A stretch of 64,000 nt of DNA, taken from assembly GCA_015709675.1 (NCBI GenBank), contig CP054182.1, forward strand, positions 62,001-126,000, read 5' to 3'. The DNA is from Ignavibacteriales bacterium (GTDB taxonomy: Bacteria; Bacteroidota; Ignavibacteria; Ignavibacteriales; Ignavibacteriaceae). A model generated the notes under the pieces. That model was not told where the DNA came from. It was given only the letters and a program-made list of their open reading frames with translations, and made no database searches. Position 1 is the stretch's first letter; the number at the start of each line of letters is the position of its first letter. The translations under genes and the position numbers were made by a program. Of the stretch, positions 19,679-28,354 are shown in pieces.

Positions 19679-21130
19679 TTACAATTCCCGCCGGAGCCGC
19701 GCGACCGGTATCCGCTCCTGCTCCCGGTATTTGGCTATGGTTCTCCGGGCTATGTTGATCCCTTCCTTATTCAGAATTTCGGCAAGTTTATCATCACTCA
19801 GCGGATTGGATTTTGACTCCCCTGCAATGATTTCCTTAATCCTCTCTTTAATAACCTTGTTGGAAATCTCCTCGCCTGATTCCGTGGTGAGTGATTCGCT
19901 GAAGAAATACTTCAGCTCGTGTATGCCCTGCGGACTCTGCACATATTTTCCGTTAACCACACGGCTGATGGTTGAGACGTCCAGATTTATCTCTTCGGCA
20001 AGATCCCTGTATATAAGAGGACGGAGATGCTTGGGGCCTTTGTCAAAAAAGTCAAACTGCTTGGTAACTATTGACTGCATCACGCGCATCAGAGTGTTCT
20101 TCCGCTGCTCTATGCAGGCAAGAAACCACTTTGCCGATTCAAACCGCTCTTTAAGAAAAGCGTAGGTATTCCGCTTTACCTCAGACTTACGGCTTGATTT
20201 TTTATTCTCCTGCAGCATCTGCACATAAGCGGGGCTGATGGTAACACTGGGAACACTCCGGTCATTCAGCGCAATCGTAAAACTTTTTCCCTCACGCTCA
20301 ACAATAAAATCAGGGGTAATCTGATTAAACTCTTTTGTCTCAACCTTACCTTCCCCCGGCCTGGGGTTCAGTTTGTGAATCAGATCAAGCACCGCGTGAA
20401 GCGTTTCGTCAGTCAGCTTCAGATTTTTCTTCAGCAGCTTATAACGCTTATGGGTGAAATCTTCGAAGTGTTCGGTAAGAACTTTCTCTGCCAGAAATGA
20501 GTAATAAGGATCAAGCGCCAGATTATGCAGCTGCACCAGCAGACACTCCTGCAGCGAACGGCAGGCAATGCCCAGCGGATCAAAAAGCTGAATCCTCTTT
20601 AGCAGCTGCTCAGCGGTTTCTTCCGGTATATCAATATGCTGAAACAGCCGGAGCTCTTTAACGATTACACTCAGTTCTTCTTTCAGATAACCGTCATCAT
20701 CAAGACTGCCTATGATCTCCTCCCCCAGCACCATCAGGTTTTCATCTATATCAAGCATGTGAAGCTGTTCAATAAGATGCTCGCTCATGGTCTCGCGCTG
20801 AGGAGTCTGAATATTCGACGGCTCATCATCGCTGCCGCGGCGGTTCAGGTATTCGGGATCATCCTGGTAATAGTCATCATCATCCAGCAGGTCTTTGCTG
20901 CTGAACTCATCATTATCCTCATCGTTAATGTCTTCCGCCGGATTTTCAGCTTCATCCGTTGCTGCTTCTTCAATGCTGATATCTTCTTCGAGAAAAGGAT
21001 TCAGCTCAATTTCATTCTTGATCTTCTGCTCCAGCGAAAGAACGTTCAGCTGCAGTATCTTCTGATACAGAATCTGCTGAGGCGTTAAGCGCTGGGTAAG
21101 ACTCAGTTTTTGAGAAAGATTAAGATTCAT
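19679..21130 (-). CDS. rpoN: RNA polymerase sigma-54 factor
   Basis: A 483-residue sigma-54. Region I is Gln/Leu-rich (LSQKLSLTQRLTPQQILYQKILQL) and would contact enhancer-binding activators. An acidic region II covers ~50-110. The core-binding region has LDDDGYLKEEL and FDPLGIACRSLQECLLVQL. The helix-turn-helix is LAEEINLDVSTISRVVNGKYV, and the RpoN box for the -24 element is near the end (ARRTIAKYREQERIPVARLRREL region, residues ~458-481). It overlaps the upstream DUF3109 gene by 11 bp. A perfect sigma-54 promoter lies just beyond that gene, pointing the other way, so the factor may act next to its own operon. Confidence 0.97.
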   Translation of the reverse strand: MNLNLSQKLSLTQRLTPQQILYQKILQLNVLSLEQKIKNEIELNPFLEEDISIEEAATDEAENPAEDINDEDNDEFSSKDLLDDDDYYQDDPEYLNRRGSDDEPSNIQTPQRETMSEHLIEQLHMLDIDENLMVLGEEIIGSLDDDGYLKEELSVIVKELRLFQHIDIPEETAEQLLKRIQLFDPLGIACRSLQECLLVQLHNLALDPYYSFLAEKVLTEHFEDFTHKRYKLLKKNLKLTDETLHAVLDLIHKLNPRPGEGKVETKEFNQITPDFIVEREGKSFTIALNDRSVPSVTISPAYVQMLQENKKSSRKSEVKRNTYAFLKERFESAKWFLACIEQRKNTLMRVMQSIVTKQFDFFDKGPKHLRPLIYRDLAEEINLDVSTISRVVNGKYVQSPQGIHELKYFFSESLTTESGEEISNKVIKERIKEIIAGESKSNPLSDDKLAEILNKEGINIARRTIAKYREQERIPVARLRREL

Positions 21131-21790: not shown

Positions 21791-21808
21791 TTGGCACGGC
21801 AGTTGCAT
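21791..21808 (+). promoter_or_regulatory. Sigma-54 (-24/-12) promoter
   Basis: TTGGCACGGCAGTTGCAT matches the sigma-54 consensus YTGGCACG-N4-TTGCW at every defined position. The GG (21793-21794) and GC (21805-21806) have the required ten-base spacing. It points rightward, away from the rpoN operon, with a predicted start near 21818. I did not identify an enhancer-binding-protein site. Confidence 0.85.
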
Positions 21809-21817
21809 AATATAAGA

Positions 21818-21929
21818 CGGAGGTTTGATAAACCTGAACGGCTCAGGAGAAGAGTAAACCCCCATGAACCCTCACTACCTCAACAGGTCTGTGACTGACA
21901 GACAGGCCTGTTGATGGTAGTTTTTTTTT
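21818..21929 (+). ncRNA. Predicted sigma-54-dependent small RNA or leader peptide transcript
   Basis: A transcript from the sigma-54 promoter would run about 112 nt to a strong terminator. It would contain a small hairpin (AGGTTT-GAT-AAACCT, 21821-21835), an AGGAGA at 21845-21850 and a 16-codon frame at 21864-21914 (MNPHYLNRSVTDRQAC) whose stop lies inside the terminator stem. No larger gene follows on this strand, so this is a stand-alone RNA, a leader peptide, or a peptide mRNA. I do not recognise it as a known RNA family. The promoter and terminator are directly visible; the RNA itself is inferred. Confidence 0.65.
21875..21929 (+). terminator. Rho-independent terminator of the sigma-54 transcript
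   Basis: Stem CTACC + TCAACAGG (21875-21887) pairs with CCTGTTGA + GGTAG (21907-21920) with one bulged T, and an inner TCTGT/ACAGA pairing. Nine T residues follow (21921-21929). Confidence 0.85.
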
Positions 21930-22100
21930 GCACTTTCCCGCTCCCCCTTGCTATTCCCCTTACCAATCAAGACACCGCACCCAACCCCTGAATTCTGCCA
22001 ATTTGTATGGCAAGCTAAGCCAGGAAGGCCGGTTTTTGATTTACTATATTGGCTGCTATCAGGAAGTAAATTGTGGTGGTTGGTAAAATCCGTGTTATTA

Positions 22101-22452
22101 ATTCGTACCATTCGTGTTACAAATTCGTGCCATTCGTGTTCCTAATTCGTGCCATTCGTGTTACAAATTCGTGCCATTCGTGTTACAAATTCGTGCCATT
22201 CGTGTTACAAATTCGTGTCATTCGTGTTACAAATTCGTGCCATTCGTGTTACAAATTCGTGCCATTCGTGTTACAAATTCGTGTCATTCGTGTTACAAAT
22301 TCGTGTCATTCGTGTTACAAATTCGTGCCATTCGTGTTACAAATTCGTGCCATTCGTGTTACAAATTCGTGCCATTCGTGTTCCAAATTCGTGCCATTCG
22401 TGTTACAAATTCGTGCCATTCGTGTTCCTAATTCGTGCCATTCGTGTTAACG
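22101..22452. repeat. 22-bp tandem repeat array, 16 copies
   Basis: Sixteen contiguous 22-bp units. Each has the heptamer ATTCGTG twice, separated by CC (sometimes TC or AC) and followed by TTACAA (variants TTCCTA, TTCCAA). The copies differ at only a few positions. Both flanks have the inverse heptamer CACGAAT (22483-22510), so the ends can pair with the array. Open frames that run through it in all three forward frames are artefacts of 22 not being a multiple of 3. This is not a CRISPR: there are no unique spacers. Confidence 0.9.
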
Positions 22453-23305: not shown

Positions 23306-26260
23306 TCATACCAGATCACTAAAACTTCTAACTCTTATCTCGGAAATTCCATTGGTTTTAGGGATATGTATAGGACTTGGGAGTTCTGTCGAATTAAACT
23401 CTTGTCCTTGTTTAGAGCATATTTTTCTGAAGTCACATTCTTCACACTTGCTATTACTTGGGCGCATAGGGAACTCCCCATCAAGAATTCTATTTACAGC
23501 CCATTCAATATTCTGAATAGCTGCTTGAATTGCTAAATCTGTAATTGGAACATTTACTCTATTTGGTGATTCTCCAGTATTGGGTGCTTTTAGCAAGTGA
23601 ACCGAGCCTGTTTTAGCGTTCTCCCCAAGAACAATATCAGCTGCATAGGCGTATAGCTGAACTTGCAATGATAGATTGATCCAAAAAAATGGATTTAACT
23701 GCCCTTCAGGGAAGTCCATTGACTTGAAATCAATTACTCGTGCTTCCAGAATATTACCTTCGTTGTCCTCTCTTAAAAGCAAATCAATTGAACCTGTTAT
23801 TAAGGCTCTGTCTGCTTTTATCTCAAACCGCTGCTCTAAAGACCGGCTTTGAACAAAATCATCTGGATATCCTTCAACATAATTCCCAACAAGTCTTCTT
23901 GATGCATTTTTTGCCCTCTCATATGGGCCTTCTCTTTCAGGGTCTCTTGATGGAAAAACATGCTTTAAATGAAAAACATCGTTGGCAATTTCTTCAGCTT
24001 GTTCCCTTGATGGTGTTGAGTTATTGAAGAGTTGATGTATTCGATTTATTGCTGTGTGGGTTGTTAAGCCATAACCGAAAAGCTCAGGTACAGCTGGGCT
24101 ATAACCATAAACTTTCCTAAATTTATATTTCATGGGACATTCCAAGTAGTCCTTTATTTCAGTAAAACTTGTAGGCATAGATTCTTCATCAATACGCATA
24201 CGTGGTTCGGCTCTTTCAATATTGTCAGGTAAATGTGTTGCATCACTAATGATTGACGGATAATTCAGCCCCTGTATCCTAAGTTTGAATGGGCTAGGGG
24301 TTTTAGGTCTTTGCAATCCTGGCTGAGTGCTGCTGCCTGTAATGTACAAAAACCGTTCTGCTCTAGTCAGTGCTGTATAAAAAAGTCTTGCTTCTCCAGC
24401 ATTATTTGTTTGGTAAAGTCCTCTTGATAAAGGATTTTGAATTAAGTTCAGTGGTAACCAACCAGTGTAATTGCTTCTTCTCAATGGAAACCGTTGCTGA
24501 ACAACGTCTACGATGAAGACCACTGGAAATTCAAGCCCCTTCATTTTATGAACAGTCGAAATTGTAACGGCATCGGGTCTTGATGTTAACTCTACTTGGG
24601 TGGTGTCATAACCGGACTCAGCAACATTTTTAAGAAAATTTAGAACGCTTTGATACCTCAGACCAGTATCTATACTCACAAAAACCTTTTCAATGTCCAA
24701 TATTATTCCACTAAAAACTCCTAAATCACGCATTACCTGTTCAGGATTATGAAACTCTGTTGTTGACAAATTAAATGCTTCAATTAATTCATGAACCAAT
24801 AATTGCGGATAAACTTTTCTTCTTGCCCCGCCAATCGGTCTGTGTATTTGGTTATTCCAATCAGCTAATATTTCTAAAAATCTATTTAAATCAGCATTTG
24901 GGAAGACAGGTAAAACATTTGAGTTGAAAAAATTAGTTGCTTCCCTTCTTGGATAACCGGGTTCTCTTAATAGTCCCATTGAATCTCTGAGTGTTCTTGC
25001 ATGGAGTCTTTCAAAAATAGAACCCTCCGCTTCAATAATATAATTTATCTCAGCATCAGAAAGAGCATTTGTATATTCTCTGTGGTATGGTGCCCCTCCA
25101 TTTCGTGTGCCGCCTTGTACCGAACGCATCAGTATTGCGAAATCAGATTTTGTTAGTCCTCTTTCAAAGCCGTCACCTTCAACGTATTTAGTGCCAATCA
25201 ATTCGTTTATTCTCATAGCAATCCATTCAGCTTCATCATTCTTACTGTCAAACCATAAATTCCCAAAGTGCTGAATATTTCCTTCCGAATTGGATATTGG
25301 TGATTTATCAATTCTGGCAGTACTAAGCTCAAGTTGAATAAACCTGTCTGAAGCAGAAACTATTGTGCTTGTGCTCCTGAAATTAGTTGATAAAGTGTGT
25401 GTGGAGCAATTTGGATATCTTTGGTCGAATTCAATAATATTCCTAACATCTGCTCCTCTCCAACCATAAATTGATTGGTCATCGTCACCAACAACAAACA
25501 ATGACCGTAGACGACTATATAAACCTCTGATTAGCCTTTCCTGAGAAATATTGACATCTTGATACTCATCAACCATAAGATGGCTAGCACAATCAAGTGC
25601 GATACTCATCTCAGGATTATTATTTTCGAGTGCTTCTACAACCAATCGTACCATTAAGGAAAAATCAATATATTGGTCAGCATTCAATCGTGAATTAATA
25701 TTTTGCAAGCTTACACCTAATGCTGGATATTCCCTTCCGATATCATCTAAAGATAACATTTCATCATTTGCCATCTTCCATGCATTTGAAACTTCGGCTA
25801 TAGTTTGAAACATTCTTGCGTTTTTAGTTTCCTGAAGTACGTTTAGCCCTAATTCATAATATCGCGATAGCAAAAATAGTTTTAATCTATTTTCGTCAAG
25901 AACTTCATACTGCCGATATTTTGCATTCATTGAGCCAAGGAGATTTTTACAAAAAGCGTGTATTGTCCCAATATACATTGCCCCCACAAGTGCCACAGGC
26001 AGACCAGTTTCTTCAAACGCATTTGCAACACGTCTTTTTAAAGACTCGGCGGCTTTTTCTGTAAATGTGAATGCAATTATACTTTCTGGTCTTGCTCCTT
26101 CATGTATAAGCCTTGCTATCCTAAATGAGAGAGTTCTAGACTTTCCTGAACCAGCACAAGCCAAACACAAAATTTCATTTGTGTCATCTATTACCACATT
26201 GTATTGGTCATTTGTAAGTGAAATATCAGAAGCTGTAAAGGTGTCTCGGAATAACGGCAT
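23306..26260 (-). CDS. UvrD/Rep-type helicase fused to a Cas4/AddB-like nuclease domain
   Basis: A 984-residue superfamily 1A helicase-nuclease. Helicase motifs in order: I ACAGSGKSRTL (Lys40), Ia FTFTEKAAESL, II DEYQD (231-235), III VGDDDQSIYGWRGAD (257-271), IV LSTNFRST, V ISTVHKMKGLEFPVV (567-581) and VI YTALTRAERFLYITG (628-642). The C-terminal domain is a PD-(D/E)XK nuclease with GSIDLL (Asp826), DFK (844-846) and the Q-x3-Y motif (Gln866, Tyr870). Four Cys (708, 939, 942, 948) fit the Fe-S clasp known from AddB and Cas4. It would unwind and cut DNA. It starts 5 bp after the methyltransferase stop and is surely co-transcribed with it. The gene is AT-rich compared with the flanks. A repair role cannot be excluded, but the context favours defence. 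Confidence 0.9.
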   Translation of the reverse strand: MPLFRDTFTASDISLTNDQYNVVIDDTNEILCLACAGSGKSRTLSFRIARLIHEGARPESIIAFTFTEKAAESLKRRVANAFEETGLPVALVGAMYIGTIHAFCKNLLGSMNAKYRQYEVLDENRLKLFLLSRYYELGLNVLQETKNARMFQTIAEVSNAWKMANDEMLSLDDIGREYPALGVSLQNINSRLNADQYIDFSLMVRLVVEALENNNPEMSIALDCASHLMVDEYQDVNISQERLIRGLYSRLRSLFVVGDDDQSIYGWRGADVRNIIEFDQRYPNCSTHTLSTNFRSTSTIVSASDRFIQLELSTARIDKSPISNSEGNIQHFGNLWFDSKNDEAEWIAMRINELIGTKYVEGDGFERGLTKSDFAILMRSVQGGTRNGGAPYHREYTNALSDAEINYIIEAEGSIFERLHARTLRDSMGLLREPGYPRREATNFFNSNVLPVFPNADLNRFLEILADWNNQIHRPIGGARRKVYPQLLVHELIEAFNLSTTEFHNPEQVMRDLGVFSGIILDIEKVFVSIDTGLRYQSVLNFLKNVAESGYDTTQVELTSRPDAVTISTVHKMKGLEFPVVFIVDVVQQRFPLRRSNYTGWLPLNLIQNPLSRGLYQTNNAGEARLFYTALTRAERFLYITGSSTQPGLQRPKTPSPFKLRIQGLNYPSIISDATHLPDNIERAEPRMRIDEESMPTSFTEIKDYLECPMKYKFRKVYGYSPAVPELFGYGLTTHTAINRIHQLFNNSTPSREQAEEIANDVFHLKHVFPSRDPEREGPYERAKNASRRLVGNYVEGYPDDFVQSRSLEQRFEIKADRALITGSIDLLLREDNEGNILEARVIDFKSMDFPEGQLNPFFWINLSLQVQLYAYAADIVLGENAKTGSVHLLKAPNTGESPNRVNVPITDLAIQAAIQNIEWAVNRILDGEFPMRPSNSKCEECDFRKICSKQGQEFNSTELPSPIHIPKTNGISEIRVRSFSDLV

Positions 26261-26265
26261 ATTAA

Positions 26266-27297
26266 TTATTTTTGATTAATGTAAGTTTGAATGTGCTGTT
26301 TAATGTTCTCAGCTTGAATCCTACTAAATTCCGGGGGTAAAGCGTTCCCAATCATCAGTGCAATTTTCGTTCTTGGTGCACCAATCGGAAACTTATATGT
26401 CTTTGGAAAAGTCTGTAGCATAGATGCTTCCCTTGCTGAAATACATCGATCTTGTTCAGGATGTAGAAAGCGTCCTTTAGAAGGGTTTAAACATCCACCA
26501 GTTATTGTAGTAGAAAAATCATCCCATCTTAATCTTCCATATACATCATTAAATCCGACATTTTCTTTCTTGTGACATTTAAGCTGTCTGTGTTTCCCTA
26601 AATCTTTTCTACTACCACCATTCTTTGGAATATCCTTAATAAAATTTAATATTTTTTCTGAATGAATAGGAAAGATTTGATGCAAAGGGTCTTTTGAATT
26701 CTCGGGTTTCGGTAGTTTGCCAATCACCTGTCGTACTGTTTTTCTCTTTTTAGTCGATTCTGCAATTTTAAGTGGTGCCAATCTGGACCCAACTAAAACT
26801 AATCTTTTTCTATTCTGAGGAACGCCATAATCACTGATGTTAACCACTTTCCAGTCCGGCTTGTAATAACCAGCTTTTTCAAGATCCTTAAGTGCTTTTT
26901 TAAATGATTTGTCAAGAGCTAAACCCGGTACATTCTCCATCATAAATGTGTATGGCTTTAACTCTTTAACAAATCTCACAAATTCTGTGATAAGCTCATT
27001 TCTGTCATCTTTCACAGGTTCGGGCTTATTAAGTCTCCTTATGGAACTAAATCCTTGGCATGGAGGACATCCAGCCAATAAGTGAATTGTTTTTTTACCA
27101 AGTTCTTTCTTTACTTCTTTTGTAGAGACGTGTCTGATATCGCTAGTTATAACTTTTGTATTCTTATGATTCAGTTTGTACGCCTTTGCTGCAATTTCAT
27201 CAATCTCAAAAGCCAATTTTGTCTGGAAACCAGCTTTTTGGAGTCCCTCTGTCAATCCCCCAACTCCACAAAATAAATCTATTGATATCAATTTCAT
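26266..27297 (-). CDS. DNA (cytosine-5) methyltransferase
   Basis: A 343-residue C5 methyltransferase with a complete motif set: I DLFCGVGGLTEG (residues 7-18), IV GCPPCQGFSS with catalytic Cys80, VI ENVPG (121-125), VIII QNRKRLVLVGSR, IX ISAREASMLQTFP and X GNALPP. The variable region between VIII and IX (~185-275) would recognise the target sequence, which cannot be read off. It is 5 bp upstream of the helicase-nuclease and 154 bp downstream of a PD-(D/E)XK-like protein. That suggests a restriction-modification or related defence module in which it marks self DNA. Confidence 0.93.
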   Translation of the reverse strand: MKLISIDLFCGVGGLTEGLQKAGFQTKLAFEIDEIAAKAYKLNHKNTKVITSDIRHVSTKEVKKELGKKTIHLLAGCPPCQGFSSIRRLNKPEPVKDDRNELITEFVRFVKELKPYTFMMENVPGLALDKSFKKALKDLEKAGYYKPDWKVVNISDYGVPQNRKRLVLVGSRLAPLKIAESTKKRKTVRQVIGKLPKPENSKDPLHQIFPIHSEKILNFIKDIPKNGGSRKDLGKHRQLKCHKKENVGFNDVYGRLRWDDFSTTITGGCLNPSKGRFLHPEQDRCISAREASMLQTFPKTYKFPIGAPRTKIALMIGNALPPEFSRIQAENIKQHIQTYINQK

Positions 27298-27451
27298 ATG
27301 TAGAATATCGTTTTTCTAATTTGGATTTCAAAGTTTTTCAAATACACAACGCTGGCTGTTTAGAAGCACTACACTGTCAGCCACACACAATCTTTGGTAG
27401 ATGATCAAAGCTAAATTTAACCAGTGAACCGACAATTTTTTGAAGGTGCTG

Positions 27452-28354
27452 TTAGCTATCGTTTTTCTTTTCATACTCGGTGTCTCTTACTATAATGAAA
27501 AATGTCGGCATACCTTGTTCGTCTTCAATTTCTATAGAATATTTATCATATTCATTAAAGTCGTTGAATAGATTAACTATGTCAGCCAAAGCATTACCTC
27601 TTTGAATTCTACTTGGGATTACACCTCTTCCAAGATTGAGAAGGTCGTATAAAATGCAATCCCAGTCAGGGTTTGGTGGAGTAAGTGGATTTTCAAAAGG
27701 AAGCCCTAAGTCGCCAACAAGAATTCTATTTAAAAAAAATCCCCAACTATATGCTAAATTTGAGTTCCAAGGAATCAGTCTCAAGTATGGAAATTTGTTA
27801 AGAATTAAATAATGTAATGCTTTAGTTCTGCCTTGGCTGTAGTCAGGTAAATTTCTTTCTGGTGTATTGATTATTGAATTATTATAAACTGTTACAGGCA
27901 TTAAAAAAGTTATGTCGCTGTCGTATAAGCATTGTTGCGATTTGGAAGTCAATTTTTCGTCTTTTTTTGCCTGCAATATTACAGCACTCCTAAATACTGG
28001 TGTCTTGTTTTTGTCTAACAAGCAAAATACTACAAGAAGGTCACCAAGTTCGCAACTTGGAGTGTCACCTGTGCATAAATTTATCGATGAAATGTGTCTC
28101 GTTATTCTTGGTTTTTGATGAATAAAAACAGAAGCAAATTTTACTTCGTATGACGCATGGCTTAATATAGGTGCTAGATTTCTATTTAGATAATCAATAC
28201 CTACATTTCCGTCCAGCAAAAAACTTTTTATTATATGAGGCTCTGTCTGATTAAAGTCAATTCCATTCCAAGAAGTTCTTGAATGATTTATTATGTCTTG
28301 TGAAAAGGTTGATACACTTTTAACAAACTTGTCGTATTCTGGTGATGGTGTCAT
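27452..28354 (-). CDS. Candidate PD-(D/E)XK nuclease (possible restriction endonuclease)
   Basis: A 300-residue protein with no family I can name. Residues 70-130 carry a pattern fitting the PD-(D/E)XK fold: Glu70 in SYEVKF, Asp105 in CELGDLLVVF, and Gln128-Ala-Lys130 at the end of the next strand (SAVILQAKK). Q-x-K variants of the last motif exist in restriction enzymes. The position immediately before a C5 methyltransferase gene in the same direction supports an endonuclease role, but this is inference. The gene is AT-rich like its two neighbours, and an attC-like hairpin ends 24 bp upstream of its start. It could alternatively be a DNA-binding specificity or antiviral effector protein. Confidence 0.6.
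   Translation of the reverse strand: MTPSPEYDKFVKSVSTFSQDIINHSRTSWNGIDFNQTEPHIIKSFLLDGNVGIDYLNRNLAPILSHASYEVKFASVFIHQKPRITRHISSINLCTGDTPSCELGDLLVVFCLLDKNKTPVFRSAVILQAKKDEKLTSKSQQCLYDSDITFLMPVTVYNNSIINTPERNLPDYSQGRTKALHYLILNKFPYLRLIPWNSNLAYSWGFFLNRILVGDLGLPFENPLTPPNPDWDCILYDLLNLGRGVIPSRIQRGNALADIVNLFNDFNEYDKYSIEIEDEQGMPTFFIIVRDTEYEKKNDS

Follow-up and report, generated by a model that had tools for sequence, protein, structure and literature searches.

RNA1, an intergenic element oriented away from rpoN in an uncultured Ignavibacteriales bacterium, is very probably a true gene for a sigma-54 small RNA. The reading that we prefer, to which we give a probability of roughly six in ten, is that RNA1 is a self-terminated non-coding RNA that would be transcribed by RpoN and would act by base pairing in trans at ribosome-binding sites, as a relative or counterpart of a wide family of such RNAs in this order. 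The promoter, the fold and the terminator of the element, their conservation in a second species of the genus and the existence of a second RNA of the same plan in the same genome are considered below.

Putative promoter, transcript and terminator of RNA1

The features of the locus are given here by their positions in the window, that is, the whole 64-kb stretch of DNA that was analysed.

19679..21130, minus strand: RpoN (sigma-54), with PF04552, PF04963 and PF00309
21120..21716, minus strand: DUF3109 protein, divergent neighbour of RNA1 (PF11307, E 5.4e-60)
21792..21807, plus strand: putative sigma-54 promoter, -24 element TGGCAC at 21792-21797 and -12 element TTGCA at 21803-21807 (exact motif and identity in the congener)
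21817..21929, plus strand: RNA1, predicted intergenic small RNA, its start placed from the position of the promoter (also conservation and fold)
21833..21847, plus strand: 5′ hairpin CCUGA-ACGGC-UCAGG, in the minimum free energy (MFE) fold of both species and identical in both
21855..21873, plus strand: C-rich stretch UAAACCCCCAUGAACCCUC, candidate pairing segment (18/18 identical in the congener over 21856-21873)
21864..21914, plus strand: 16-codon frame with its stop in the 3′ arm of the terminator, probably not coding
21874..21929, plus strand: predicted intrinsic terminator, hairpin 21874-21921 followed by nine T at 21921-21929 (fold and identity in the congener)

A reading of the sequence alone had held that the -24/-12 element agrees with the sigma-54 consensus at all positions, and this was borne out by the exact motif TGGCAC-N5-TTGCA, in which the GG and the GC are present and the spacing between the two elements is exact. 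The match, TGGCACGGCAGTTGCA (21792-21807, plus strand), is the sole exact occurrence of TGGCACN5TTGCW within the 64-kb window, and the 100 bases 5′ of it are the leader and start of DUF3109. When up to two mismatches were allowed, 28 matches were found in the window vs. 32 expected, so that the looser matches there are noise. Only four exact motifs occur in the 4.2-Mb genome, which is close to a naive estimate from base composition, and a perfect promoter match alone is therefore weak evidence. Genome-wide, one mismatch gave 125 matches vs. 76 for a reversed-pattern control, and the stricter YTGGYAYN5TTGCW gave 20 vs. 1 in this genome and 16 vs. 6 in the congener. Seven of the 15 sites of this stricter type whose loci were read (from the 20 in the genome) fall within long frames, where they may be intragenic sites or chance matches. 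The sigma-54 site is overlapped by two sigma-70-like hexamer pairs, in a region where the scan gave 8 vs. 5.8 expected. The genome encodes RpoN together with enhancer-binding activators (Pfam), the Sigma54_activat profile having 18 matches, of which 13 are strong (E 1.3e-65 or better).

Downstream of the promoter, the stretch 21815-21930 has an MFE of -43.8 kcal/mol (z -5.07), and none of 200 shuffles was equally stable, in keeping with the earlier proposal of a strong intrinsic terminator with nine T residues after about 110 nt. The terminator loop, UGACUGACA, is 9 nt long, and the hairpin was unlisted in a simple terminator scan of the window that had a loop limit of 8. The C-rich stretch UAAACCCCCAUGAACCCUC is partly paired at its 5′ end in the MFE fold. 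That no larger gene lies between promoter and terminator also held, the plus-strand frames downstream being those of a 22-bp tandem repeat (22091-22449), and Rfam 15 at gathering score has no match in the window. RNA1 has its own putative promoter, a stable hairpin with a T run and no notable open frame, as an intrinsically terminated small-RNA gene would.

The 16-codon frame that had been noted to end within the terminator stem is present at 21864-21914, with its stop in the 3′ arm, and a small protein or leader peptide has been considered as its product. The frame has a plausible ribosome site and is intact and of equal length in both species, but the four substitutions between them, all in the terminator stem, affect three codons, one silently and two with a change of residue, and the proposed ribosome site is kept only in part in the congener. 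A leader peptide would have no following gene to control, and a closed ATG frame of at least 10 codons occurs in 33 of the 108 members of the wide family described below, the other 75 being without one. A micropeptide is accordingly unsupported, and translation of the frame is, in our estimation, very improbable.

Several features stand beyond RNA1. The tandem array at 22091-22449 holds 16.3 copies of its 22-bp unit, and in the congener its position is occupied by related ATTCGTG-type repeats. The stretch 21991-22095, which lies between RNA1 and the array, is 84/107 identical in the two species, above the 62 bases before it (33/62). Farther on, 23306-28354 (minus strand) encodes a UvrD-like helicase that carries a PD-(D/E)XK domain, together with a C5 cytosine methyltransferase and a protein of 300 aa with neither a Pfam nor a PADLOC match, a cassette that looks like restriction or defence.

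Conservation of RNA1 and its link to rpoN

In the congener, the sole same-genus genome compared (G001), RNA1 has the same arrangement beside rpoN. Identity is high in the 5′ coding part of DUF3109 (93/99) and in its leader (39/43), falls to 10/29 in the spacer upstream of the promoter, and is complete in the -24 (6/6) and -12 (5/5) elements, with 2/5 for the bases between them. RNA1 itself is identical at 98 of 114 columns over 21816-21928 vs. 33/62 directly downstream, the C-rich stretch at 18/18 (21856-21873) and the terminator hairpin at 42/47 (21874-21920). The congener RNA1 folds with a z of -3.72, and both the CCUGA/UCAGG hairpin and the terminator are found in the two species; in the terminator stem, one pair has changed on both sides, one has changed on one side and one is broken. 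Judged from two genomes only, this pattern of identity is the one that selection on a promoter and its RNA would leave.

It is conceivable that the sigma-54 motif is coincidental, and that what persists at this short divergence is a terminator or some other DNA or RNA element from which no RpoN-dependent RNA is made. The four exact motifs per genome, near naive expectation, would agree with this, as would conservation in just two genomes, the sigma-70-like hexamers that overlap the site and the likewise conserved stretch 21991-22095 (84/107). Against it, the -24/-12 elements are kept exactly amid poorly conserved bases between (2/5) and upstream (10/29), the relaxed motif is found 20 times vs. 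once in the control, and RNA2, a second RNA built in the same way, is found conserved throughout the order. We therefore consider coincidence unlikely, although it is an alternative to be taken seriously, and favor an RpoN-dependent RNA.

Outside the genus, RNA1 is not found in credible form. BLAST against 97 relatives returned one strong match beyond the source genome, that of the congener, and many weak ones up to E 1 that resemble chance. The covariance search for homologues that had been suggested was carried out with a model (R1) on the 164 genomes available for the order; it recovered the two congeners and one weak match (G007, E 0.07), with no credible match among the remaining 162. A promoter-plus-hairpin pattern run over genome contigs gave seven stretches. 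One is that of the congener; the other six come from Pseudomonadota and Chloroflexota and were rejected as homologues, being without likeness beyond the pattern itself. The weak G007 match is a sigma-54-like motif, TGGCACACCAGTTGCA, that stands some tens of bases upstream of a tRNA-Tyr, -Gly, -Thr and -Trp cluster (L064:1498-2093) and may be there by chance.

DUF3109 was found in 95 of the 97 genomes, and in the best 30 of these 95 rpoN lies alongside it at 30 of 30 loci. An exact sigma-54 motif upstream of DUF3109 is confined to the two same-genus loci of the 30; the other 28 have no motif, or scattered sites with one or two mismatches. Since rpoN adjoins DUF3109 at all 30 loci and the exact motif occurs only in the two congeners, the linkage of RNA1 to rpoN is, on these sequences, evidently not ancestral. 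The sequence-only reading had named, as one ground for refutation, loss of the motif from relatives that share the rpoN locus; the motif is kept within the genus and, in exact form, absent from the 28 loci outside it.

These observations bear on the proposal that RNA1 is a feedback RNA tied to rpoN. An RNA that acts in cis or by feedback on the divergently oriented DUF3109-rpoN operon, sensing for example the level of sigma-54, would agree with the position of RNA1 beside rpoN in both congeners. Yet the RNA1 transcript would head away from the operon, the motif is restricted to the genus while rpoN is adjacent at 30 of 30 loci, and pairing with the operon is poor. In a crude pairing of the conserved segment of RNA1 with the 31 gene starts of the window, the DUF3109 and rpoN starts rank 24 and 27, and the duplexes of whole RNA1 with the DUF3109 leader (-37.4) and the rpoN start (-36.8) are weaker than the median for shuffled rpoN stretches (-45.2). 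The feedback proposal thus found little to sustain it, and we think it very unlikely. The companion proposal of a sigma-54-responsive small RNA fits well with a promoter, an RNA and a terminator that are all kept in the congener, and with the 13 strong activators of the genome.

RNA2 and the wide Ignavibacteriales family

Reading downstream of strong sigma-54 sites in the source genome revealed a second orphan RNA, RNA2, at position 3320729 of C1 in that genome (G000), flanked by nadA, which is divergent, and by a GHL10/Por-secretion gene, which is convergent.

G000:C1:3320729-3320855 (L069:1501-1627), outside the window: RNA2, canonical member of the wide family

In the congener, RNA2 has an identical body as far as its tail, and its promoter is retained. 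BLAST with RNA2 matched 20 of 97 genomes at E 0.01; the matches in G035, G048 and G089 were discarded as chance on reading and that in G016 is doubtful. From 15 RNA2-type sequences, one per genome and with a sixteenth genome (G070) excluded, we built alignment A5 and covariance model R2, which at E 0.05 has a match in 123 of the order's 164 genomes (116 of these at E 0.001 or better), or 108 of 149 without the 15 model-building genomes. A further model, R3, drew on 108 matches at 90 loci in 86 genomes; within the class it has matches in 86 of 391 genomes, of which 80 belong to the same order and 6 to a single family beyond that order, family and order being the ranks that the search tool assigns. 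The G016 element (L181:1392-1526), in which a terminator with long arms and an extended loop comes after a sigma-54 motif, is a weak R2 match (E 0.015) and possibly another divergent cousin of the family.

In the terminator stem of the wide family, 98.9% of cells are paired, and double-sided changes occur in 10 of 10 pairs in a structure-fitted alignment, compared with compensatory changes in 5 of 10 pairs in the MAFFT alignment A5. None of 500 shuffles reached the covariation score and one reached the pair number, slid controls being far lower. Nearly all matches (97/108) start with [TC]GG[CT]A[CT] and TTG in register, with C after TTG in 18/108, a result to be read in light of the models, which include the promoter and so lean toward promoter-bearing sequences. 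Two same-strand copies, with starts 132-296 bases apart, are present at 17 of the 90 loci; such tandem siblings occur in L212, L213, L251, L252, L253, L257, L258 and others, several having diverged C-rich parts.

The neighbourhood of the family recurs among the 90 loci, with NadA divergent at 39, AroB convergent at 34, a same-strand histidine kinase gene just upstream at 66 (e.g. L190:193-1404) and none of the five tested neighbours at 7. The family promoter could be under the control of this kinase as its sensor; a sequence-motif search of nine larger regions found no sigma-54 activator gene beside the family RNAs. In single genomes, an [FeFe] hydrogenase lies two genes downstream (G008) or SufB is divergent (G182). 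None of 12 wide-family loci has an Rfam match, and no published name for the family was found. RNA2 and its relatives apparently constitute a widespread, undescribed family of sigma-54-driven small RNAs.

Whether RNA1 is kin to this family is less clear. RNA1 scores 13.8 bits with R2 and 14.7 bits with R3 (E 1.5 each), which is not significant, vs. 110.7 bits with R2 for RNA2, itself part of that model; the congener RNA1 scores 12.0 bits with R2 (E 3.1) and is not reported in register by R3. In the window, RNA1 is the top R3 match and in register, mostly through its promoter and T run. A weak R3 match upstream of DUF3109 in L039 (E 0.1) was rejected, as it overlaps the DUF3109 start and is without a sigma-54 motif. 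The central stretch of RNA1 aligns with the G003 family member, its best match, at the equivalent place. A match of that level against all 108 members was equalled by 5 of 300 shuffles of RNA1 and 4 of 300 of the congener RNA1, and against G003 alone, chosen after the fact, by none of 1000. True family members used as controls score 45-61 vs. 27-30 for the two RNA1s.

RNA1 resembles the wide family in type of promoter, in length, in having a 5′ hairpin or variable part, a C-rich stretch and a terminator, and in sharing its genome with RNA2. In contrast, it fails the models, has another loop and another locus and is limited to one genus: its terminator is without the family loop GCCCUC, as are some tandem family copies, and the DUF3109-rpoN locus is without the NadA, histidine kinase and AroB neighbours. 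Because RNA1 fails the covariance models (E 1.5), we have not filed it as a member and regard it as at most a possible divergent sibling. A bolder view would make RNA1 a rapidly diverging sibling within an undescribed sigma-54-driven RNA family that mimics the anti-Shine-Dalgarno (anti-SD) sequence and spans the order and beyond; this view is tentative, and we would sooner bet against it than for it.

Proposed action and significance

In the mechanism that we propose, one of the enhancer-binding activators of the genome would switch RNA1 on, RpoN-holoenzyme would transcribe it as a free-standing RNA from the promoter at 21792-21807, and transcription would end at its own terminator. The conserved C-rich stretch would then pair in trans with purine-rich ribosome-binding sites and block translation, which would give the sigma-54 response a negative, post-transcriptional arm. 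RNA1 would in this way be a relative or functional counterpart of the family whose canonical member, RNA2, adjoins nadA. Many members of that family carry CAUAGCACCCUCCUU or GCAUAGCAUCCCUCC, the complements of which read as an SD sequence, a short gap and AUG; in RNA2, CAUUAGUACCUUCCUUC has the complement GAAGGAAGGUACUAAUG, and the complement of RNA1, which carries CCCCC and CCCUC, contains GAGGGUUCAUGGGGG. Since these C-rich segments are complementary to SD sites, the sequences suggest that the wide-family RNAs and RNA1 may block ribosome-binding sites, the complementarity being to a generic start site.

Sites complementary to the SD-like segment of RNA2 number 15 in the source genome and 10 in the congener, self matches included, vs. 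16 and 15 for the reversed control, and those complementary to the wide-family segment in eight other genomes number 18 (6 being the RNA genes themselves) vs. 13. Given no excess over the controls, no target is claimed. Some of the matches are real start sites, presumably those of acetyl-CoA synthetase-like, acyl-CoA dehydrogenase-like and other proteins. The same lack of excess for RNA2 and the wide family would agree with an RNA1 that bound or titrated a protein and did not base pair, but the wide family repeatedly shows unpaired, C-rich segments with complementarity to SD sites and, by eye, no repeated protein-binding motif was noticed, so that we hold protein binding to be improbable and retain base pairing as the preferred mode.

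Sigma-54 sites that precede the same gene in both species are found before pyruvate:ferredoxin oxidoreductase (cut short by the end of the locus, its best model scoring below the cut-off), a NuoA-like protein (likewise below it) and a sulfide/dihydroorotate dehydrogenase-like subunit, which scores above its cut-off. These shared sites point to electron-transfer metabolism. Two other sites are recorded here: an exact motif at G000:C1:3431070 (L158:1501-2842) precedes genes for a small PqqD-domain protein and for an ATP-grasp protein, a peptide-modification-like operon, and a near-perfect motif in G025 (L004:1511-2053) precedes a 155-aa protein, which we take to be Dps-like.

Small RNAs driven by sigma-54 are known mainly from proteobacteria. 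The Qrr small RNAs of Vibrio are sigma-54-dependent and activated by enhancer-binding proteins (PMC10162802), with several siblings per genome that share a conserved 32-nt core (PMC4211561). To that extent, RNA1 and the wide family resemble Qrr as putatively sigma-54-dependent small RNAs with siblings within one genome, but they belong to another phylum, have no quorum-sensing link and gave no Rfam match here. GlmY of enterobacteria is a sigma-54-linked small RNA beside a two-component system (PMC8745638), much as a histidine kinase lies upstream at 66 of 90 family loci; unlike GlmY, the RNAs described here have no Rfam match, the nine wide-family regions have no activator gene, and RNA1 is without a kinase neighbour. 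Alpha-r14/NfeR1 of rhizobia has an unpaired anti-SD motif, CCUCCUCCC, for which blocking of ribosome-binding sites has been proposed, and is made from a sigma-70 promoter with three hairpins (PMC10746234). The motif is comparable with ACCCUCCUU in many wide-family members and CCCCC/CCCUC in RNA1, whereas the sigma-70 promoter and three hairpins of NfeR1, and the lack of an Rfam match here, set them apart. The accessible text of a Flavobacterium sRNA study makes no mention of RpoN (PMC9723704). In a literature search with most subscription journals outside its coverage, nothing was found on sigma-54 RNAs of Ignavibacteriales, on sRNA of Melioribacter or on Ignavibacterium with RpoN.

A group with few cultured members appears to own a deeply conserved sigma-54 RNA family that is absent from Rfam 15 and has very strong covariation and fixed neighbours, alongside the genus-specific RNA1. 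Together, RNA1 and the family make the RpoN response of the group directly testable. Given the shared sigma-54 sites before electron-transfer genes, it may be through these RNAs that electron flow is coupled to translation. Were RNA1 indeed a sibling, RpoN would activate redox operons directly and shut off other mRNAs through these RNAs, and sibling RNA copies would evolve new seeds.
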